Positions 33,110 through 43,050 of a DNA stretch of 64,000 nucleotides are shown in pieces. The notes beneath the pieces are model-generated. The model was not told the DNA's origin and did not search any database. It saw only the letters and a list, made by a program, of their open reading frames with translations. The DNA lies in assembly GCF_023146395.1 (NCBI RefSeq), contig NZ_JAGLCD010000010.1, forward strand, positions 1-64,000, read 5' to 3'. Source of the DNA: Aeromicrobium sp. (GTDB taxonomy: Bacteria > Actinomycetota > Actinomycetes > Propionibacteriales > Nocardioidaceae). Every line of letters starts with the position of its first letter. Positions within the stretch are counted from its first letter, which is position 1. Position numbers and translations under genes: made by a program.

Positions 33110-34390
33110 ATGGTTTCGGGGCCCACAGTGCACGCGCTCCGTACCGCCGCGCACGCCGTCACCGGCACCGACCACCGATCCGCCCTGGTCGCGATCCAGA
33201 CCGCCCAGGACGCGCTCGACGCCGCCAAGGCTCACCATCTGGCGGAGCTGGAACGCACCGCCGACCACGAGCTCGACGGCGCCTCGACCGTCACCGCCTG
33301 GGCGCGGGACCACCTGCGCCTCGACGCCCGCACCACCCGCAGCCTGATCGCCGCGGACCACACGATGCGTGAGCTGCCCGCCGTGGCCGAGGCGGCTGTC
33401 GCTGGTGACATCCGTCTGGACCACGTCAAGCTCTTCACCTTCGGGCTCAAGCACATCGGCACGGAGATCGTCACCGATGCTGAACCGTGGCTCCTGGCGG
33501 TCGCGACCACCCATGAACCCGTGCAGCTGCGCCGGGTGGTTCGCGCCCTGCGGGATGCGGTCTACCCCGAGGCGTTGGATGAGGCGTGGATCAACGGGAT
33601 GGCCAAAGAAGACCTCCAACTCTCACCCGTGCCCGAGGGCTGGCACCTGACGGGGTTCCTCAAGACTGAGACCGGCGCGAAGCTCAAGGCCGTCCTCGAC
33701 TCGTTGTCGATCCCCACGGTCGCGAACGACGACCGCAGCAGTGCCGAGCGTCGTGTCGCCGGACTCGACCGGCTCCTCTCGTCCGTCCTCGAATCCGGGC
33801 TGCCGTCGAGCAAGGGCATCCGCCCCCAGCTCTCGGTCATCGTGGGGGTCGAGACCCTCCACGAGGCCATGACCGCGGAACCCGGGACGGCCCAACCGGT
33901 CGGTGAGCCGGCCGAGCTGACCGGCTTCGGGCCCATCGGACCCCAGCTCCTCTCCTACCTGGCCTGCACCGGCGACATCACCCCCATCCTCACCAGTGAT
34001 GACGACATCGAGCAGGCACAGATCCTCAACGTCGGCGACACCATCCGCCTCGCCACCCCACCCCAACGCAAAGCCGTCAACGCCCGACAGCACGGCCAGT
34101 GCGCAGCACCCGGCTGCACCCACACCCACCTCGAGATCCACCACACCACCTGGTGGTCCAACGGCGGCAAGACCGACCTCGACGGACTCATCGGCCTCTG
34201 CACCAACTGCCATTCACTCGTCCACCGCGGCCTACTCATCATCGACGCCCTCGGCCACGGCAAATTCGACCTGTCCACCCGCGACGGCAGACCCATCGAC
34301 CTCACCCGACGCCGCACTACCCGCCACCACCTCCGCGCCATCCGCCACGCCGCACGCGCGCGAAGAACCGACTACCCCATGCGCGCCTGA
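33110..34390 (+). CDS. DUF222 / 13E12-repeat HNH endonuclease-like protein
   Basis: A 426-residue protein with an N-terminal DUF222 domain (about residues 10-290; ALVAIQTAQDALDAAKAHHLAELER, TRSLIAADHTMRELP) and a C-terminal HNH nuclease fold. The nuclease part holds GQCAAPGC, EIHHTTWWSNGG, DLDGLIGLCTNCHSLVHRG. Both zinc knuckles and the catalytic HH pair are complete, so it may be an active nuclease. These genes are multi-copy in many actinobacteria (REP13E12 family) and may be mobile. Here it lies directly behind a field of short repeats. Its 3' part has a lower-G, C/A-rich codon style (many CAC, ACC, CCC) unlike its neighbours, hinting at transfer. Confidence 0.9.
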   Translation: MVSGPTVHALRTAAHAVTGTDHRSALVAIQTAQDALDAAKAHHLAELERTADHELDGASTVTAWARDHLRLDARTTRSLIAADHTMRELPAVAEAAVAGDIRLDHVKLFTFGLKHIGTEIVTDAEPWLLAVATTHEPVQLRRVVRALRDAVYPEALDEAWINGMAKEDLQLSPVPEGWHLTGFLKTETGAKLKAVLDSLSIPTVANDDRSSAERRVAGLDRLLSSVLESGLPSSKGIRPQLSVIVGVETLHEAMTAEPGTAQPVGEPAELTGFGPIGPQLLSYLACTGDITPILTSDDDIEQAQILNVGDTIRLATPPQRKAVNARQHGQCAAPGCTHTHLEIHHTTWWSNGGKTDLDGLIGLCTNCHSLVHRGLLIIDALGHGKFDLSTRDGRPIDLTRRRTTRHHLRAIRHAARARRTDYPMRA

Positions 34391-34586: not shown

Positions 34587-36146
34587 TCACGACAGGTCCA
34601 GGTCCCCGAGCCCCAGCTGCTCCACGAGCGCTGCGGCCGCCGCATGGCCACCCAGGCCGCTGACGGCACCGCCGCGCCGCGCACCGCTGCCGCAGAACAG
34701 CACCCGCGGGTGCGCGGTGGCCACGCCCCAGCGGGTCGCGGAAGTGTCGGCCGGTTCGCCCTCCTCCAGCCACGGCCAGGCGAGATCGCCGTGGAAGATG
34801 TGGCCGCCGGGCATCGCGAGCGCCGTCTCGATGTCGCTCGGGGTCTTGACCTCGACGCCGAGCACCAAAGGGGAGAGCGGCTCGGCCAGGTGCTCCTCGA
34901 TCGCCGCCACGACCCGCGCGTAGGCCTCCTCCGCTGCCGGGGCATCGCCCAGCGTGGCAGGCGGCGTGTGGAGTCCGAAGTAGGTCAGGGTCTGAGCCTC
35001 GGTGGCCGCGAGCTCGGGGCCGAGGATGCTGCGGTCGGTCAGGGTGTGGCAGTACACCTCGCCCGCGGCGCGGGTGGGCAGGCGGCCAGCCGAGGCCTCG
35101 GCGTGCGCGGTCTCGAGCTCGGTGTAGGACTCGCCGAGGTGCAGCGTGCCGGCGAACGCGACCTGCGGGTCGAGTCCGCTGCGGAGGCGCGGGAGACGCG
35201 ACAGCAGCAGGTTGACCTTGAGCTGCGACCCTTCGGGGCGCGTGTCGACGGGTGACCCGAGCAGATCGGCCAGGACCGCGGGAGCCACGCCCGACAGGAC
35301 GTGCGCGGCGCGCCAGGTGCGATCGCCGGAGGTCACGAGCACCGCGTCCTCGCCCGCACTGACGGTCTCGACCGGGGTGCCTGTGACGATCTCGGCTCCG
35401 GCCTCGCGAGCCACTCGCTCCAGCTCACCCGTGACGGCCCCCATGCCGCCCACGGGGACGCGCCACTCACCCGTCCCGTTCCCGACGAGGTGGTAGAGGA
35501 AGCAGCGGTTCTGGCTCAGGGACGGTTCGTGCAGCGAGGCAAACGTGCCGATCAACGCATCGGTCGCCACGACCCCGCGCACCAGGTCGTCGGTGAACCG
35601 GCGCTCGATCGCCTCGCCGAGGGGTCGCTCCACCAGGTCGCGCCACGTCGCGGGATCGATGCCAGCGCGGACGTCGCGGACCGACGGCAGGGGCCCGAGC
35701 AGGGTCGGCGCCACGGCCGCCGCCAGGCCTTCGACATCGGCGTAGAAGCGCTCCCATGCGACCAGCTCGTCGTCGCCGCCCGTGAGCCGTCGGAACGACT
35801 CCCGCGTGGGATCACCCACGACAGTCTCGACCAGGAGTCCGTCGGGCGAGCCGTCGTCGCGGACGTAGGGGCTGTACGAGGCGGTGTCGCGCGACCGCAG
35901 CTCGAGGCGCAGGCCGAGCTCCTCCCGCAGACGGTCGGGGAAGAGACTCACGAGGTAGGAGTACCGCGAGAGGCGGGCCTCGAGGCCCGGGAACGCCTGG
36001 GCGCTCACCGCGGCACCACCCACGTGCTCGAGGCGCTCCAGCACCGCCACGGCCAGGCCGGCGCGAGCCAGCAGGGTCGCGGCGACCAGGGCGTTGTGGC
36101 CCCCGCCGACGATCACGACGTCACGGTGCTCGGTGGTGCTGGTCAC
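34587..36146 (-). CDS. FAD-dependent oxidoreductase, phytoene-desaturase-like
   Basis: A 519-residue flavoprotein of the amine-oxidase/phytoene-dehydrogenase group, close in layout to PYROXD2/CrtI-like proteins. The N-terminal dinucleotide fold reads DVVIVGGGHNALVAATLLARAG, followed by LERLEHVGGAAVSAQ. The C-terminal FAD motif GGHIFHGDLAWPWLEEG and FCGSGARRGGAVSGLGGHAAA close the fold. No carotenoid synthesis genes are nearby, so the substrate is unknown. GTG at 36146 lies six bases after TAGGTT on the minus strand; that box overlaps the -10 box of the divergent Nramp gene. Confidence 0.87.
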   Translation of the reverse strand: MTSTTEHRDVVIVGGGHNALVAATLLARAGLAVAVLERLEHVGGAAVSAQAFPGLEARLSRYSYLVSLFPDRLREELGLRLELRSRDTASYSPYVRDDGSPDGLLVETVVGDPTRESFRRLTGGDDELVAWERFYADVEGLAAAVAPTLLGPLPSVRDVRAGIDPATWRDLVERPLGEAIERRFTDDLVRGVVATDALIGTFASLHEPSLSQNRCFLYHLVGNGTGEWRVPVGGMGAVTGELERVAREAGAEIVTGTPVETVSAGEDAVLVTSGDRTWRAAHVLSGVAPAVLADLLGSPVDTRPEGSQLKVNLLLSRLPRLRSGLDPQVAFAGTLHLGESYTELETAHAEASAGRLPTRAAGEVYCHTLTDRSILGPELAATEAQTLTYFGLHTPPATLGDAPAAEEAYARVVAAIEEHLAEPLSPLVLGVEVKTPSDIETALAMPGGHIFHGDLAWPWLEEGEPADTSATRWGVATAHPRVLFCGSGARRGGAVSGLGGHAAAAALVEQLGLGDLDLS

Positions 36147-36152
36147 GTGCTC

Positions 36153-36162
36153 AACCTACGGT
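36153..36162. promoter_or_regulatory. Overlapping divergent leaderless -10 boxes
   Basis: On the plus strand TACGGT occupies 36157-36162, six bases before ATG 36169. On the minus strand TAGGTT occupies 36158-36153, six bases before GTG 36146. The boxes overlap by two bases, so the two genes cannot easily start transcription at once. Confidence 0.55.
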
Positions 36163-36168
36163 GGGTCG

Positions 36169-37440
36169 ATGGACGATCACGGGGGAGAGCAGGAGGCGCG
36201 TCAGGTCAGGGCGCGGTGGAAGCTGGTCGGGCCAGGGCTCGTGGTGGCCGGCACGGGTGTCGGTGCGGGTGACCTCGTCGCGACCCTGACGGCGGGCTCG
36301 AAGTTCGGCTACGCGCTGCTGTGGGCGGTCGTGCTCGGCACGCTGTTCAAGATCGCGCTGGTCGAGGGGGCCGGCCGGTTCACCTTGGCCACGGGCCGCA
36401 CGATCTTCCAGGGTTGGCAGACGCTCGGCCGATGGACCGGGTGGTACTTCGGTCCGTACATCGTGATCTGGGGCGTCGTCTACGGAGCGACCGCGATGTC
36501 GTCCTCGGCGCTCCCGCTCGTGGCGCTGTTCCCCGACGGTCCCGACCTCAAGGTCTGGGCCATCGCGATGGGCCTGGCCGGCTTCGCGCTCGTGTGGCTG
36601 GGACGGTACGGCCTGGTCGAGAAGCTCATGGCGACGTTCGTCGGGATCATGTTCACGACCGTCGTGGGGGCGGCGATCCTGGCCACGCCCAACCTGCCCG
36701 AGATGGTGGGTGGGCTCGCGCCGCGCATCCCCGAGGGCGGCCTCGTCAACACCCTCGCGGTCGCGGGCGGCGTGGGCGGCACGATCACGCTCGCGGCGTA
36801 CGGCTACTGGCTGCGCGAGAAGGGCTGGTCGACGCCGGGCTGGATGCGCGTCATGCGCCTCGACAACTCGATGGCCTACGTCATGACCGGCATCTTCGTC
36901 GTCGCGATGCTGGTCGTCGGCGCCGAGCTGCTCTACAGCAGCAACATCGCCGTCGGTACGGGCGACCGAGCGCTGATCGGCCTCTCGGACGTGCTCGACG
37001 ACCGGTACGGCGAGTTCTTCGGCAAGCTGTTCCTGTTCGGCTTCTGGGCCTCGTCGTTCTCGTCGTTGCTGGGGGTCTGGCACGGCGTCTCGCTGATGTT
37101 CGCGGACTACCTCGGCACGTCGCGCGGCCTGGACCAGGACGATCCGCGGATGCACGCCCGGGGCACGTACTACCGCGCCTACGTGTTGTGGCTGACGTTC
37201 CCGTCGATGGCGCTGCTGTTCCTCGACGAGCCGGTCGCGGTGATCCTGGCGTACGGCGTGCTGGGATCGATCTTCATGCCGTTCCTGGCGCTCACGCTTC
37301 TGGGCCTGCTCAACACCGACCGGGTGCCGCGCGAGTGGCGCAACGGCCTGCTCGGCAACGTCGTGCTCAGCATCTGCGCCGTCATGTTCATCGCCGTGGG
37401 CGCCAACGAGCTCTACAAGGCCGTCACCGGGGTCTTCTGA
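36169..37440 (+). CDS. Nramp-related transporter with non-canonical metal site
   Basis: A 423-residue, eleven-helix LeuT-fold protein of the Nramp superfamily. In transition-metal Nramps helix 1 has DPGN and helix 6 has MPH. Here the equivalent stretches are PGLVVAGTGVGAGDLVA and GGTITLAAYGYW, so the Asp-Asn and Met-His ligands are absent. This resembles Nramp-related Mg-type or uncharacterised branches, and Mn or Fe uptake should not be assumed. The rest (GRYGLVEKLMATFVGIMF, WLREKG, KLFLFGFWASSFSS) fits the family. ATG at 36169 follows TACGGT by six bases. A three-part repeat lies directly after the stop. Confidence 0.82.
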   Translation: MDDHGGEQEARQVRARWKLVGPGLVVAGTGVGAGDLVATLTAGSKFGYALLWAVVLGTLFKIALVEGAGRFTLATGRTIFQGWQTLGRWTGWYFGPYIVIWGVVYGATAMSSSALPLVALFPDGPDLKVWAIAMGLAGFALVWLGRYGLVEKLMATFVGIMFTTVVGAAILATPNLPEMVGGLAPRIPEGGLVNTLAVAGGVGGTITLAAYGYWLREKGWSTPGWMRVMRLDNSMAYVMTGIFVVAMLVVGAELLYSSNIAVGTGDRALIGLSDVLDDRYGEFFGKLFLFGFWASSFSSLLGVWHGVSLMFADYLGTSRGLDQDDPRMHARGTYYRAYVLWLTFPSMALLFLDEPVAVILAYGVLGSIFMPFLALTLLGLLNTDRVPREWRNGLLGNVVLSICAVMFIAVGANELYKAVTGVF

Positions 37441-37581: not shown

Positions 37582-37920
37582 TCAGCGGAGCGTGGGCTGG
37601 ACGCGGTAGACCGACTGCACCAGCGCCATGACGGAGCGGGCCACGGTCCGCCCGGGGTCGGTGAGGGCGTAGTCGACGTGCTGGGCGAGCGTGTCGTGCT
37701 CGGTCCGCGAGACCAGCCCGCCGGCCAGGAGCTGCTTGAGCGTCTGCGACAGCATCTTGTCGCTGATGCCGTCGATCCGGCGCCGCAGCTCGCCGAAGCG
37801 TGCGCTCTCGACGTCGTTCAGGGCCGCCAGCGTCAGGGTGCCCCAGCGGCTCGTCACGAGCTCGAGCGTCTCGCGCGACGGGCACTGCGTCGCGAACACG
37901 TCGTACTCGGGTGCACTCAT
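37582..37920 (-). CDS. HxlR family winged-helix regulator
   Basis: A 112-residue MarR/HxlR-type DNA-binding protein. The pattern CPSRETLELVTSRWGTLTLAAL, RFGELRRRIDGISDKMLSQTLKQL (recognition helix), then GLVSRTEH and VDYALTDPGRTVA is diagnostic. C13 in the N-terminal arm is in the place of the redox- or quinone-reactive Cys of YodB/QorR-like regulators. ATG at 37920 has AGGAGGT six bases upstream. It is divergent from a QorB/NmrA-like reductase gene, and a palindrome lies between them, so it probably represses that gene in a thiol-dependent way. Confidence 0.9.
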   Translation of the reverse strand: MSAPEYDVFATQCPSRETLELVTSRWGTLTLAALNDVESARFGELRRRIDGISDKMLSQTLKQLLAGGLVSRTEHDTLAQHVDYALTDPGRTVARSVMALVQSVYRVQPTLR

Positions 37921-37977: not shown

Positions 37978-38021
37978 AACCTCGGGTGAGTAGAATCCCC
38001 CTTCGAACTCAGGAGAACCCC

Positions 38022-38870
38022 ATGACCATCGCCGTCACCGGAGCCACCGGCCAGCTCGGCCGCCGCATCGTCGCCCAGCTCCTCGAGCGCGTCCCCGCGT
38101 CCGAGATCGTCGCCGTCGTCCGGGACGAGGCCAAGGCCGCGCCGCTCGCCCAGCAGGGCGTCCAGGTGCGCGTCGCGACCTACACCGACGTCCCCGCCCT
38201 CGACGCCGCATTCGCCGGCGTCGACAAGGTCGTGCTCGTGTCGGGCAACGAGATCGGGCAGCGCGCCGTGCAGCACGGCAACGTGATCGAGGCCGCGAAG
38301 GCCGCAGGCGTCGGCTTCATCGCGTACACGAGCGTCCTGCACGCCGACGGCTCGCCGCTGCTGGTCGCCCCCGAGCACGTCGCGACCGAGGCCCTGCTGG
38401 CCGACTCCGGCCTGTCCTACAGCCTGCTGCGCAACGGCTGGTACCACGAGAACTACGCCACCAGCATCGACGCGGCGCGCGCCTCGGGCGCCGTCGTGAC
38501 GAGCGCCGGCGACGGCAAGGTCGCCAGCGCGTCGCGTGACGACTTCGCCGCGGCCGCCGCGGTCGTCGTCACGACCGAGAACCCCGAGCGGGTCTACGAG
38601 CTGTCCGGCGACGTCGCCTGGTCGCAGGCCGATCTGGCCGCCGCGATCGCACAGGTCATCGGCTCGGAGGTGTCGGTGCTCGACGTCGACGCCGAGAAGC
38701 ACGCCGAGATCCTGAGCGGTGCCGGTCTCGACGAGGGCACCGTGCAGTTCGTCGTGGCGACCGACGGCCACATCGCCGCGGGCCACCTGGCCGCCACGCC
38801 CGGCACCCTGTCGACCCTGATCGGTCGGCCGACTACGCCCCTGGTCGACACGCTCCGCACGCTGGTCTGA
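38022..38870 (+). CDS. NmrA/QorB-like NAD(P)H-binding quinone reductase
   Basis: A 282-residue atypical SDR. ITGATGQLGRR-type loop (here VTGATGQLGRRIV) binds NADP. The text ASEIVAVVRDEAKAAPL, VLVSGNEIGQR, YTSVLHADGSPL and SLLRNGWYHENYA closely matches the QorB NAD(P)H:quinone oxidoreductase group, which reduces quinones and electrophiles. ATG at 38022 is preceded by CAGGAG six bases away. The adjacent divergent HxlR gene and operator-like palindrome suggest control by quinone or disulfide stress, as for yodB/qorR systems elsewhere; this is inference. Confidence 0.87.
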   Translation: MTIAVTGATGQLGRRIVAQLLERVPASEIVAVVRDEAKAAPLAQQGVQVRVATYTDVPALDAAFAGVDKVVLVSGNEIGQRAVQHGNVIEAAKAAGVGFIAYTSVLHADGSPLLVAPEHVATEALLADSGLSYSLLRNGWYHENYATSIDAARASGAVVTSAGDGKVASASRDDFAAAAAVVVTTENPERVYELSGDVAWSQADLAAAIAQVIGSEVSVLDVDAEKHAEILSGAGLDEGTVQFVVATDGHIAAGHLAATPGTLSTLIGRPTTPLVDTLRTLV

Positions 38871-38881
38871 GTTCTGACGGA

Positions 38882-38925
38882 AGGAGGCCTGCGTCACTAG
38901 GCTGCCCCCATGACGCAGGCCTCCT
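38882..38925 (+). promoter_or_regulatory. Perfect 15-base inverted repeat spanning the glpK promoter and start
   Basis: AGGAGGCCTGCGTCA at 38882-38896 is matched exactly by its inverted copy at 38911-38925. The 14-base centre holds TAGGCT (38898-38903), a -10 box six bases before the glpK ATG at 38910. The right arm covers the start codon and first codons. It may be an operator or an RNA hairpin. The AGGAGG in the left arm is too far away to be the ribosome site. Confidence 0.7.
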
Positions 38926-40430
38926 CCGCACGAGCCCGGTACGTCGGAGCGATCGACCAGGGCACCACGAGCACCCGCTTCATGGTGTTCGACCACGCTG
39001 GCGCCGAGGTCGTCCGGCACCAGGTCGAGCACGAGCAGATCCTGCCGCGCGCGGGCTGGGTCGAGCACGACCCGGCCGAGATCTGGCGCAACACCGAGCT
39101 GTGCATCCGCGAGGCGCTCTCGAGCGCCGAGCTGACCCACGAGGACCTCGTCGCGGTCGGGGTCACCAACCAGCGTGAGACGACGGTGGTGTGGGACCGC
39201 CGCACGGGGCAGGCCTACACCAACGCGATCGTGTGGCAGGACACCCGCACGGCCGAGATCGCCGCACAGGCCGACGAGAAGCACGGCGACCTGATCCGTC
39301 ACCGGTCCGGCCTGCCGCCCGCGGCCTACTTCGCCGGCGGCAAGATCGCCTGGATCCTCGCGAACGTCGAGGGGGTGCGCGAGGACGCCGAGGCGGGTCA
39401 CGCGATCTTCGGCACGATCGACACGTGGCTGCTGTGGTGGCTCACGGGCGGGCCCGACGGCGGTCAGCACCTGATCGACGTCACGAACGCCAGCCGCACG
39501 ATGCTGATGGACCTGGAGACCTTGGCGTGGGACGACGAGCTGCGCGAGGTCTTCGGGGTGCCCGAGCAGATGCTGCCGCAGATCCGGTCCTCGTCGGAGG
39601 TCTACGGCACGACGCTGGCCGACGGGCCCTTCGGCGGCGAGGTCCGGCTCGCCGGTGACCTCGGCGACCAGCACGCGGCCCTCGTCGGGCAGGCGTGCTT
39701 CGAGCCGGGCCAGCTCAAGAACACCTACGGCACCGGCAACTTCCTGGTGCTCAACACCGGCACCGAGATCGTGCGGTCGAGCCACGGCCTGCTCACGACA
39801 CTCGGCTACCAGCTGGGGGACGAGGCGCCGGTCTACGCGCTCGAGGGATCGATCGCCGTGACCGGGTCGGCGGTGCAGTGGCTGCGCGACCAGCTCGGCA
39901 TCATTGAGGACGCGGCCGAGACCGAGACGCTCGCCGCGAGCGTCGAGGACACCGGCGGCGTGTGCTTCGTGCCGGCCTTCTCCGGCCTGTTCGCCCCGCA
40001 CTGGCGGCCCGACGCTCGTGGCGTCATCGTGGGCCTCTCGCGGTTCAACACCAAGGCCCACCTCGCTCGCGCGGCGCTCGAGGCGATCTGCTTCCAGAGC
40101 AAGGATGTCGTCGACGCGATGGTCGTCGACGCGGGCCTGGAGCTCTCGATCCTGCGGGTCGACGGGGGTGTCACGGCCAACGACCTGTGCATGCAGATCC
40201 AGGCCGACGTGCTCGGCGTCGAGGTCAGCCGCCCCGTCGTGACCGAGACCACGGCGCTCGGCGCGGCCTACGCCGCCGGCCTCGCGGTGGGCTTCTGGAC
40301 GAGCTGCGAGGAGCTCGTCGACAACTGGCAGGAGAGCAAGCAGTGGGCCCCCCGTTGGGACGACGAGCATCGCGAGGTCTCGCACGCGCAGTGGACCAAG
40401 GCCGTCGAGCGCACGCACGGCTGGGTCTGA
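38910..40430 (+). CDS. glpK: Glycerol kinase
   Basis: A 506-residue FGGY kinase phosphorylating glycerol to glycerol-3-phosphate in the cytosol. [18 protein letters not shown] opens the N-terminal domain, followed by [13 protein letters not shown] and [22 protein letters not shown] contains the catalytic Asp, [11 protein letters not shown] precedes the ATP-site loop, and [19 protein letters not shown] closes the C-terminal domain. No other in-frame start lies between ATG 38910 and the conserved core. It belongs with glpD at 41320, although a MerR gene lies between them. Confidence 0.96.
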
Positions 40431-40476: not shown

Positions 40477-41283
40477 ATGTTCACCATCGGAGAGCTCGCT
40501 CGCCTCGGGGGCGTCTCGGTGCGGATGCTGCGTCACTACGACGCCCTGGGTCTGCTCGAGCCCGCTGAGGTCGACCCCTTCACGGGTCGGCGCTCGTACG
40601 CCGCTGCTCAGCTCGCGCGCCTCAACCGCCTCGTGGCGTTGAAGGACCTGGGCTTCTCGCTCGACCAGGTCCGTCTCCTCCTCGACGAGGCGCTCGAGGC
40701 CGACGAGCTTCGCGGCATGCTGCGCCTGCGCCATGCCGAGCTGGTCGAGCAGATCGCGGCCGACCGGTCGCGGCTCGACCGCGTCGAACGGCGTCTCCGA
40801 ACCATCGAGAAGGAGCACGACATGACTGAGACCACCGTCACCACCCTGCCCTCGATCCGTGTCGCTGAGCGTCGGGGCGAGGCTGCATCGCTCGAGGAGG
40901 TCGCCGCGGTCGTCCAGCCCCTGTTCGGCGAGCTGGCCGGGGCACTCGCGGCCACGGGAGCACCGCTGCAGGACCCGGCCATGGCGTTCTACGAGCTGCA
41001 CGACGATGGCACGGTCGGGGTTCACGTGGCGTTCCCGTTGCCGACCGGGGACGATCCCGGCGTCGGTAACACCGTGACGCTCCTGCCGGCCGAGGAGCAC
41101 GCGATCGTGACGCAGCACCTCGGTCCGCTCGACGAGGCGGCCGAGGCGTGGCAGGCGCTGGGCGCCGCGATGGCGAGCGACGGCCTGGAGCCCAGCGGGG
41201 CAGCGGTCCGTGAGGTCTACATCCACATGCCCATGGACGATCCCGGCGCCTGGGTCACCGAGCTGCAGTGGCCGGTGCGCTGA
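40477..41283 (+). CDS. MerR family regulator with GyrI-like effector domain
   Basis: A 268-residue activator with an N-terminal MerR winged helix (FTIGELARLGGVSVRMLRHYDALGLLEP, residues 1-75), a dimerisation coiled coil (about 85-118), and a C-terminal GyrI-like ligand-binding domain (about 120-268), the BmrR/TipA-like layout. No cysteine cluster is present, so it senses an organic ligand rather than a metal. Its own promoter has a textbook MerR operator. It lies between glpK and glpD, 36 bases before glpD; whether it controls glycerol use or simply sits there is open. Confidence 0.9.
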   Translation: MFTIGELARLGGVSVRMLRHYDALGLLEPAEVDPFTGRRSYAAAQLARLNRLVALKDLGFSLDQVRLLLDEALEADELRGMLRLRHAELVEQIAADRSRLDRVERRLRTIEKEHDMTETTVTTLPSIRVAERRGEAASLEEVAAVVQPLFGELAGALAATGAPLQDPAMAFYELHDDGTVGVHVAFPLPTGDDPGVGNTVTLLPAEEHAIVTQHLGPLDEAAEAWQALGAAMASDGLEPSGAAVREVYIHMPMDDPGAWVTELQWPVR

Positions 41284-41319
41284 GGCGCGCGCGCCTGCCG
41301 TGGGTGATTGACTGGGCGC

Positions 41320-43050
41320 ATGCGATCGGTAGCGCTCTCCCCGGACCAGCGGCAGGCCGCGCTCGAGGCCATGGCCACGGAGCACCTCGACGTGCTCGTG
41401 ATCGGTGGTGGTGTCGTCGGCACGGGAGCCGCGCTCGATGCCGCGACGCGCGGCCTCTCGGTCGGCCTCGTCGAGGCGCGTGACTTCGCCTCCGGCACCT
41501 CCAGCCGGTCCAGCAAGCTGATCCACGGCGGCCTGCGGTACCTCGAGATGCTCGACTTCCGCCTCGTCGCGGAAGCGCTGGCCGAGCGCAGCCTGCTGAT
41601 CGAGAAGCTCGCCCCGCACCTGGTCAAGCCCGTGCCGTTCCTCTACCCGCTCACGCACCGGGTGTGGGAGCGCTTCTACGCCGGCTCCGGCGTGCTGCTG
41701 TACGACACGTTGGCGCGGCTGTCCGGCCGGTCCCGCGGCGTGCCGCACCACACGCACCTGACGCGCCGGGGTGCGCGCAAGATGATGCCCGCGCTGCGCA
41801 AGGACGCGCTGGTCGGCGCGCTGCACTACTACGACGGACAGGTCGACGACGCCCGCCACACCATGATGATCGCCCGCACCGCCGCCGCCTACGGGGCGCA
41901 CGTCGCTACGCGGGCCCGCGTCGTCGACCTGCTACGCGAGGGCGGCCGGGTCGTCGGCGCGCGGGTCGCCGATCTCGAGACCGGTCGGCAGATCGAGGTC
42001 CGCGCCCGCCAGGTCGTCAACGCCACCGGCGTCTGGACCGACGAGACCCAGTCGTTCGCGGGGGAGCGCGGGCAGTTCCACGTCCGCGCCTCGAAGGGCA
42101 TCCACCTCGTCGTGCCGCGCGACCGGATCCGCGGCGAGTCCGGCCTGATCCTGCGGACCGAGAAGTCGGTCCTGTTCGTCATCCCGTGGGGCCGCCACTG
42201 GATGATCGGCACGACGGACACCGACTGGTCGCTCAGCAAAGACCACCCCGCGGCCAGCCGCAGCGACATCGACTACCTGCTCGACCACGTCAACGCGGTC
42301 CTCGTCGAACCGCTGACCCACGACGACGTCGAGGGCGTGTTCGCCGGACTGCGCCCGCTCCTGGCCGGTGAGTCCGACGCCACCAGCAAGCTGTCGCGTG
42401 AGCACGCCGTGTCCACCAGCACCCAGGGCCTCGTGGTCGTCGCGGGCGGCAAGTACACGACCTACCGCGTCATGGCCAAGGACGCGATCGACGCCGCCGT
42501 GCACGCGATGAGTGCCGACCTGGACCGCAAGGTGCCGCCGTCGTGCACCGAGGACGTCCCGCTGCTCGGTGCCGACGGCTACGAGGCGCTGTGGAACCAG
42601 CGCCACCAGCTCGCGGTGTCCTCGGGTCTGAGCGTCTCCCGCATCGAGCACCTGCTCAACCGCTACGGATCGTTGGCGTTGGAGGTCCTCGACCTGGTCG
42701 GCAGACACCCCGACCTGGGCAGGCCGCTCGGCGGTGCGGACGACTACCTGCGCGCCGAGGTCGTGTACGGCACGACCCACGAGGGCGCGCGTCACCTCGA
42801 CGACGTGATCGCCCGTCGCACCCGCATCTCGTTCGAGACCTTCGACCGGGGCACCGAGGTCGCCCGGGAGGTGTCGGAGCTGATGGGCAAGGCGCTCGGC
42901 TGGAACAAGGCGCAGCGCCAGCGTGAGGTCGAGCACTACCTGAAGCGGGTCGAGGCCGAGCGCGAGAGCCAGACGATGCCGGACGACGAGACGGCCGACG
43001 CGGCCCGGATGGGGGCGCCGGACGTCGTGCCCGTGCAGGTGAGCGCGTGA
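41320..43050 (+). CDS. glpD: Glycerol-3-phosphate dehydrogenase, FAD type
   Basis: A 576-residue membrane-associated flavoenzyme oxidising glycerol-3-phosphate to dihydroxyacetone phosphate and feeding electrons to quinones. The FAD loop reads VLVIGGGVVGTGAALDAATRG, followed by the GlpD signature DFASGTSSRSSKLIHGGLRYLE and GTTDTDW. The C-terminal DAO_C domain (about 400-530) has KYTTYRVMAKDAID before it. ATG at 41320 is chosen; a TTG at 41308 is also in frame. It forms a glycerol-use set with glpK; no glycerol facilitator is in the window. The stop overlaps the DUF4097 gene by four bases. Confidence 0.94.
   Translation: MRSVALSPDQRQAALEAMATEHLDVLVIGGGVVGTGAALDAATRGLSVGLVEARDFASGTSSRSSKLIHGGLRYLEMLDFRLVAEALAERSLLIEKLAPHLVKPVPFLYPLTHRVWERFYAGSGVLLYDTLARLSGRSRGVPHHTHLTRRGARKMMPALRKDALVGALHYYDGQVDDARHTMMIARTAAAYGAHVATRARVVDLLREGGRVVGARVADLETGRQIEVRARQVVNATGVWTDETQSFAGERGQFHVRASKGIHLVVPRDRIRGESGLILRTEKSVLFVIPWGRHWMIGTTDTDWSLSKDHPAASRSDIDYLLDHVNAVLVEPLTHDDVEGVFAGLRPLLAGESDATSKLSREHAVSTSTQGLVVVAGGKYTTYRVMAKDAIDAAVHAMSADLDRKVPPSCTEDVPLLGADGYEALWNQRHQLAVSSGLSVSRIEHLLNRYGSLALEVLDLVGRHPDLGRPLGGADDYLRAEVVYGTTHEGARHLDDVIARRTRISFETFDRGTEVAREVSELMGKALGWNKAQRQREVEHYLKRVEAERESQTMPDDETADAARMGAPDVVPVQVSA

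Follow-up and report, generated by a model that had tools for sequence, protein, structure and literature searches.

The gene at positions 36169 to 37440 of the window (the whole stretch of 64,000 nucleotides analysed, from an Aeromicrobium sp.) encodes a protein which is not a canonical Nramp. We propose, with a probability of about 0.58, that it is a non-canonical secondary transporter of the LeuT fold, on the Nramp branch, which imports a small organic solute rather than manganese or iron, this solute being of the glycerol type in the genus. An organic molecule seems likelier than a metal because the metal-gripping residues are lost, because the protein stands on a separate branch, and because in the genus the gene is found only among genes of glycerol breakdown. 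The starting points are a predicted fold and four observations: the loss of the motifs, the strict conservation of what replaces them in the class, the position of the branch and the place of the gene in the genome.

The protein, its fold and its metal site

The features of the gene used in this section are the following:
36169..37440, plus strand: Nramp-fold transporter of the GAxD class, 423 amino acids (Pfam/NCBIfam, model, alignment, tree)
36256..36273, plus strand: GVGAGD of helix 1, codons 30-35, in place of DPGN (L-INS-i alignment)
36766..36786, plus strand: GGVGGTI of helix 6, codons 200-206, in place of the MPH region (alignment and model)

The open reading frame is complete, from the ATG at 36169 to the stop codon ending at 37440 (plus strand, 423 aa), and the sole Pfam match of its product at 0.001 is Nramp (PF01566, 126.3 bits for a cut-off of 29.8). 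The NCBIfam model NF037982, "Nramp family divalent metal transporter", scores it at 257 bits; this is an "equivalog" model with a cut-off of 50 bits, which was also passed by one GxGE and one GPGT protein (one of each class was scanned). The MntH model (59.7 of 430 bits) and TIGR01197 (23.7 of 272.5 bits) are both far under their cut-offs. The metal label of the protein stems from that single broad model. A second Nramp, on another contig of the same assembly (2.82 Mb, 83% complete), is a much stronger match (339 bits; row L030) and belongs to the DPGN class, of canonical MntH type.

We built an AlphaFold model of the window protein from 22 sequences (pLDDT 81). It has a full-length transporter fold with no extra domain, in which helices 1 and 6 are interrupted, at residues 31-32 and 202-204 respectively. 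The best PDB matches of the model are Nramps, headed by that of D. radiodurans (DraNramp, 6c3i_B; Z 42.0, 378 residues, 2.6 A); EleNRMT (Z 39.6) and 9a52, an integrative YcsG-FabL model (Z 36.6), are also matched. The predicted structure shares the LeuT-type fold of canonical Nramp/SLC11 proteins. Although canonical MntH/DraNramp is the closest structural match, its D, N, M and H ligand positions are all changed in the window protein.

These changes were read from an L-INS-i alignment of 85 Nramps, in which the canonical D-P-G-N of helix 1 faces G32-A33-G34-D35 and the M-P-H of helix 6 faces G204-T205-I206. In the 18 rows of the GAxD class, D has become G and N has become D without exception, while the canonical rows keep D and N (16/16); the position of the helix 6 methionine is G in 18/18, P or H is found at the next two positions in 0/18, and residue 206 is I, F or L. 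G32, D35, G204, T207, Y211, Y213 and W214 are invariant in 18/18 rows and T205 is kept in 17. Since the replacements hold throughout the class, the site has been altered in a fixed way and is not decaying. The GAxD, GxGE and ASGE rows have in common W214 and an acid at position 35 (33/33 in all). The block which corresponds to the proton-path acids of helix 3 (ATDLAEV in the canonical rows shown) contains no acidic residue in the window protein. Hence DPGN, MPH, the helix 3 acids and a place in the clade of canonical Nramps, which characterise canonical SLC11 proteins, are all absent. The original prediction had noticed GVGAGD in helix 1 (residues 30-35), the lack of Met-Pro-His in helix 6 and the absence of both canonical ligand sets; the alignment of the 85 proteins agrees on every point, the replacements being strict in 18/18 GAxD rows. 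The carboxylate of D35 remains, a helix 1 acid kept three residues further on, and therefore not all acidic ligands are lost.

Magnesium and aluminium, which had been put forward as candidate cargoes, receive no support. The site of the NRMTs (EleNRMT, CabNRMT), which carry Mg2+, is reported as DxxG-TxxA/T and that of NRAT as DxxN-AxxT (PMC8806188). The window protein resembles the NRMTs in its Nramp fold and in having a non-canonical site, but differs from them by the DxxG-TxxA/T site itself and by their MgtE-domain neighbour gene; DxxG in helix 1 with TxxA/T in helix 6 was not found in it, and motif, alignment and tree all place it outside the NRMT class.

Place in the family

We collected 233 Nramp ORFs, some of them fetched twice, and classed them by their helix 1 motif: GAxD 112, DxxG 37, DPGN 35, GxGE 15, ASGE 13, GPGT 7, DxGD 5, GPGN 4 and others 5. 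Quick unrooted IQ-TREE trees were calculated from 85 rows and then from 80 rows (five left out). The GAxD class lies on one side of a branch in both, with an SH-aLRT of 98 (85 rows) and 97 (80 rows). In the 85-row tree, GAxD, GxGE, ASGE and one unclassed row are split from DPGN, DxxG, GPGT and DxGD with an SH-aLRT of 100; the branches which separate GxGE from ASGE draw a long-branch warning from IQ-TREE. The AU test on the 80-row tree rejects a topology in which GAxD and DPGN are constrained to group. A grouping with canonical Nramps after proper alignment had been named beforehand as the outcome that would overturn the prediction; the GAxD proteins do not enter the canonical clade after alignment (p-AU 2.57e-5, SH-aLRT 97 for GAxD), and this objection therefore falls. 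The suspicion that the metal-transporter annotation may be wrong is strengthened by the lost ligands, the separate branch and the broad NF037982 label.

Of the 293 genomes of the order, 60 contain a match at E 1e-30 or better; at E 1e-15, a threshold which lets in more distant relatives, the count for the phylum is 41 of 396 genomes. These genome sets are from Actinomycetota; other phyla were sampled by plasmid records only, among which tblastn detected relatives in Rhodobacterales (Haematobacter, Ketogulonicigenium; 59-61% identity) and in Bacilli (Mesobacillus, Peribacillus; 45-47% identity). These relatives mean that the GAxD class has crossed phyla.

Nramp-related proteins which lack DPGN, MPH and the proton-path residues and fall outside canonical Nramps have been described (Ray, Berry and Gaudet 2026, preprint PMC12873925; PMC10606218), and a legend of the preprint calls their groups, except the NRMT-like one and that of MntG, "entirely uncharacterized". 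Like these "orphan" or "G-motif" proteins, the window protein is in PF01566 without either metal motif, and the G at its metal-aspartate position would be compatible with the name "G-motif" of the preprint. Unlike the reading proposed here, the parts of these two papers which describe Nramp-related proteins give them no organic cargo. C. glutamicum was reported in 2026 to need its NRAMP-family protein PxpT in order to grow on 5-oxoproline (PMC13274462), so that the idea of a divergent Nramp which carries an organic molecule predates this work. PxpT is 50% identical to YcsG of B. subtilis, and its authors left metal transport open as a possibility (PMC13274462); YcsG, as MntG, has been argued to be a manganese importer (PMC10448178), and MumT of A. 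baumannii is reported to be another (PMC5050338). PxpT and YcsG, likened to the window protein by description only, are also divergent members of the family in an organic-acid locus. PxpT is linked to pxpABC, whereas the window gene lies outside any pxpABC cluster, its nearest genes with family matches being those of the FAD oxidoreductase, HxlR, the NmrA-like protein, GlpK and GlpD.

The glycerol locus in the genus

The genes which follow the transporter gene in the window are:
37582..37920, minus strand: HxlR-type regulator (Pfam)
37986..38870, plus strand: NAD(P)H-binding NmrA-like protein (Pfam)
38910..40430, plus strand: glycerol kinase GlpK (NCBIfam, 741.5 bits, cut-off 498)
40477..41283, plus strand: regulator-like ORF between glpK and glpD, judged by eye to be of MerR type (NCBIfam gave no match at 1e-20)
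41308..43050, plus strand: GlpD-like glycerol-3-phosphate dehydrogenase (NCBIfam, 352.3 bits, narrowly missing the cut-off of 360)

Forty-eight of the 49 genomes of the genus contain the GlpK of the window (at E 1e-100) and five contain the Nramp gene, no match to the latter being found in the other 44. In all five, the Nramp gene lies in the glpK/glpD region, in three different arrangements. The order is FAD oxidoreductase (minus strand), Nramp (plus strand), HxlR, NmrA-like, GlpK, GlpD in the window and in G003; it is FAD oxidoreductase, Nramp, GlpD in G018, whose nearest GlpK is at another site, with a MIP gene about 55 bp away; and in G022 and G183 the Nramp gene is followed after 20 bp by GlpK and then by GlpD. 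A sixth genome, G015, has a MIP-family channel gene (TIGR00861, 221.6 bits) between the FAD oxidoreductase gene and GlpK, and no MIP match was found in the genome of the window, an assembly 83% complete. The window protein does not belong to the GlpF/MIP sequence family, an unrelated family of channels, and its likeness to GlpF is one of position only, through this slot of G015. By position, the gene is that of a glycerol-locus transporter in the genus (5/5) and not in the other genera searched: among the orthologue loci searched, GlpK and GlpD matches of at least 38% identity occur in the four loci of the genus and in none of other genera.

Two sister genomes, G181 and G704, have a GlpK 95% identical to that of the window and keep glpK and glpD, but all that is left of the Nramp gene is its two ends:
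L338:6150-7050 and L339:9950-10550: remnants of the Nramp gene in G181 and G704, interrupted by a gap of about 1.03 kb in one and 1.04 kb in the other
The inner gaps end at different points, which suggests separate losses. The transporter slot is occupied in G019 by an HNH-type ORF and in G013 by a cupin-like and a small ORF, unrelated to Nramp (both assigned by eye), and it is empty in G006; the idea that the slot is always filled by a transporter is rejected by these three genomes. HNH-type ORFs, again by eye, were seen near the locus in the window (33110-34390) and at L342:7921-9096, the latter being the one in the slot of G019. In L177 and L178, glpK possesses a separate -10-like box, given which a strict operon of the Nramp gene with glpK is not supported.

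Upstream of the transporter gene, the relevant features are:
34587..36146, minus strand: FAD-dependent oxidoreductase, amine-oxidase-like (Pfam PF01593, 44.5 bits)
36153..36158, minus strand: -10-like box TAGGTT for the divergent oxidoreductase gene, whose start codon is 6 nt away (TANNNT match)
36157..36162, plus strand: -10-like box TACGGT, 6 nt before the Nramp ATG (TANNNT match, read from the sequence)

The two boxes overlap by two bases on opposite strands. Both are found in the window, L338 and L339, and L175 has the box of the Nramp side only, so that both are present in three of the four aligned loci. The overlapping -10 boxes described beforehand are therefore found again as putative elements, which would imply leaderless starts for both genes; a sigma-70 scan, which requires a -35 box, found no promoter. 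The flavin oxidoreductase had also been called the promoter partner of the transporter. The divergent FAD gene (34587-36146, minus strand) is there, but it is not a dedicated partner. It lies at most 1.5 kb from glpK in 9 of 30 GlpK loci of the genus, in genomes without the Nramp gene, and it was not found beside the Nramp gene in L177 and L178; a dedicated pair is ruled out by these two facts. The oxidoreductase is an old neighbour of the glp locus. Control by a metal riboswitch was likewise rejected: at Rfam gathering scores, tRNAs were the only matches in the window and four orthologue loci.

Neighbouring genes follow the motif class

Across the Nramp classes, the neighbouring genes follow the motif class. 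Neighbours were called by our own scoring of ORFs and not by a gene finder, and the loci within a class are related, so that the counts are not independent; the 109 GAxD gene calls represent 107 distinct sequences, some genes having been fetched twice. Clusters (DtxR-like, PRC/MgtE_N/CBS, hydantoinase A/B) were counted up to four genes on each side; Pfam scans covered up to three genes on each side for GxGE and ASGE and up to two for GAxD, DxxG and GPGT, the tallies being taken among the matches listed (first 25 families). One sample of neighbours comprised 108 of 125, two near-duplicate loci and five single ORFs being left out, and another 108 of 112. The GAxD sample comprised 127 neighbours of 34 loci chosen from the 109 gene calls; 36 loci were wanted, and L171 and L172 were not called.

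A DtxR-like gene (PF02742 with FeoA) lies within four genes of 7 of the 20 DPGN genes, and of none of the 109 GAxD, 36 DxxG, 12 GxGE, 9 ASGE and 5 GPGT calls. For the NRMT-like DxxG class, MgtE_N and CBS were found by Pfam in 16 of 125 neighbours, and neighbours of the PRC/MgtE_N/CBS type accompany 26 of the 36 genes (L249-L284). The MgtE-domain context of NRMTs, linked to magnesium, has already been reported (PMC4072509), and the agreement with that report indicates that the neighbour test recovers known biology. The neighbours of GxGE and ASGE genes are genes of sugar-acid and purine catabolism: among 108, we found SMP-30/gluconolactonase 7 times, GntR 4, FCD 4, altronate dehydratase, PfkB, KDPG aldolase, 2-hydroxyacid dehydrogenase and OHCU decarboxylase 3 each, and uricase 2. 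In L174, L333, L331, L298, L302 and L303, the GxGE Nramp either is part of a four-carbon acid-sugar cluster or has an altronate-dehydratase-like gene next to it. Beside three of the five GPGT genes lie hydantoinase/oxoprolinase A and B, and near three of the five a D-glutamate-cyclase-like cluster (2 of 51 neighbours scanned by Pfam); judging from these neighbours, GPGT Nramps beside HyuA/HyuB are candidates for the uptake of 5-oxoproline or hydantoin. The order Nramp, hydantoinase/oxoprolinase A, B recurs in three actinobacterial loci and a haloarchaeon (L246, L247, L259, L337). In G355 (L246), a GAxD and a GPGT Nramp are about 3.7 kb apart with HyuA/HyuB in between.

The GAxD class itself has no enriched neighbours in its Pfam scan (127 neighbours, 34 loci), the top family having at most four members: gamma-glutamyltranspeptidase has four matches and QueT three. 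A clustering of ORFs from 80 named loci, with a crude caller, gave no cluster besides the transporter in more than nine loci. Ten co-directional close neighbours scanned singly share no theme; they include an enolase-superfamily protein, an amidohydrolase, a glyoxalase-like protein and unrelated proteins, and two are without match. GAxD genes are frequently solitary in other genera. The loci examined among the gamma-glutamyltranspeptidase and QueT matches, L186, L188 and L189, belong to one actinobacterial family; the GAxD gene lies near QueT in these loci, with gamma-glutamyltranspeptidase and QueF in L186 and L189.

Among the 68 plasmid records with a match, we examined the annotation of 14, and six of these 14 loci have a gene of organic catabolism next on the same strand. 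In Mesobacillus (GAxD), the Nramp gene begins 31 bp after a thiolase gene which itself follows CoA-transferase A/B; in Rhodococcus (GAxD-type, 32% identical), an amidase gene overlaps by 1 bp, with RidA and FAD-oxidoreductase genes near; two Streptomyces (GxGE) have a four-carbon acid-sugar cluster, at distances of 212 and 85 bp; Rubrobacter (GxGE) has a UxaA-family gene at 22 bp; and in Haloarcula (GPGT) HyuA is directly adjoining, with HyuB after it. The other 8 loci have no clear catabolic partner. Iron-uptake genes lie on both sides of the K. robustum orthologue, and a low-affinity iron permease gene lies upstream of the Nramp gene in Mesorhizobium.

Which cargo?

The likeliest cargo in the genus is glycerol or a closely related compound with three carbons, for instance glycerol-3-phosphate, and the imported solute would feed the GlpK and GlpD encoded just downstream. 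The transporter would work by alternating access, the broken helices 1 (G30-D35) and 6 (G200-T207) forming a site in which the solute may be held by the glycine-rich stretches at both breaks together with D35, T205/T207 and the conserved Y211-x-Y213-W214. Uptake may be proton-coupled through D35 or through E66/R70. From the direction of import and the organic, glycerol-type cargo to the role of each residue and the energy coupling, this scheme is what we infer. In favour of an organic cargo, we count the loss of the ligands in 18/18 rows, the p-AU of 2.57e-5, the presence of a canonical Nramp elsewhere, the context which tracks the motif class and the precedent of PxpT, as well as the glpK/glpD region in 5/5, the MIP gene in the slot of G015, the catabolic neighbours in Mesobacillus and Rhodococcus and the HyuA/B of Haloarcula. 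Against the organic or glycerol reading, we count the lack of any GAxD enrichment outside the genus, the remnants in two sister species, the 44 of 49 genomes without a match, the slots of G019, G013 and G006, the box of glpK's own, the 8 of 14 plasmid loci without a partner and the iron genes of K. robustum; by analogy, the reports of manganese import by MntG and MumT, and the metal transport which PxpT may perform, also weigh against it.

Within the organic reading, whose overall probability it shares, it is rather unlikely that the cargo is unrelated to glycerol, for instance a monocarboxylate or a ketoacid, the position in the glp locus being then an accident of insertion. Such a cargo would fit with the absence of a glp link outside the genus, with the thiolase and CoA-transferase genes beside the Mesobacillus orthologue and with the loss of the gene in sister species which keep glpK and glpD; against it, the gene lies by glpK and/or glpD in five genus genomes out of five, in three arrangements.

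The main rival, which we hold to be unlikely, is that a divalent metal, Mn2+ or another, is still imported through a redesigned site with D35 and backbone carbonyls as ligands, the glp neighbours being due to chance or the metal serving Mg/Mn-dependent enzymes of glycerol metabolism. The Nramp fold, the acidic residue of helix 1 kept in 18/18, the manganese import reported for the divergent MntG and MumT and the iron-uptake genes which flank the K. robustum orthologue are all consistent with it. Yet all the aligned canonical ligand positions are changed, a canonical-class Nramp is encoded elsewhere in the genome, a DtxR-like clustered gene is found within four genes of 0/109 GAxD genes versus 7/20 canonical ones, and no metal riboswitch reached the Rfam gathering scores in the window and the four orthologue loci. 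Finally, it is very improbable that the protein has lost transport and become a sensor or transceptor with an Nramp-like domain, for which plant EIN2 is the comparison case: the loss of the metal ligands and helix 3 acids and the frequently solitary gene in other genera would agree with this, but the model predicts a full-length transporter fold with no added domain, and both unwound helix regions are strictly conserved.

Returning to import of an organic solute, among the matches listed from a PMC subset of the literature we found none that connects glycerol, sugar acids or purines with Nramps of the GAxD or GxGE class, and none reporting a link between motif class and context across Nramp classes or an Nramp in a glycerol locus. 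We tentatively extend the reading to the branches with G or A at the metal-aspartate position, a generalisation which we ourselves consider doubtful: these would be misnamed importers of organic solutes, GxGE and ASGE carrying sugar acids and purine products, GPGT 5-oxoproline or hydantoins, and GAxD belonging with them, the window protein being an importer of glycerol or glycerol-3-phosphate which has taken the slot of a glycerol facilitator in a glp locus. Should the GAxD, GxGE and GPGT classes indeed transport polyols or organic acids, many proteins now annotated as metal transporters bear the wrong name. If the reading is true, the metal site of Nramps would have arisen among carriers of organic solutes, and the dispute about YcsG/MntG (manganese or 5-oxoproline) would become a general, testable question of motif class versus cargo.
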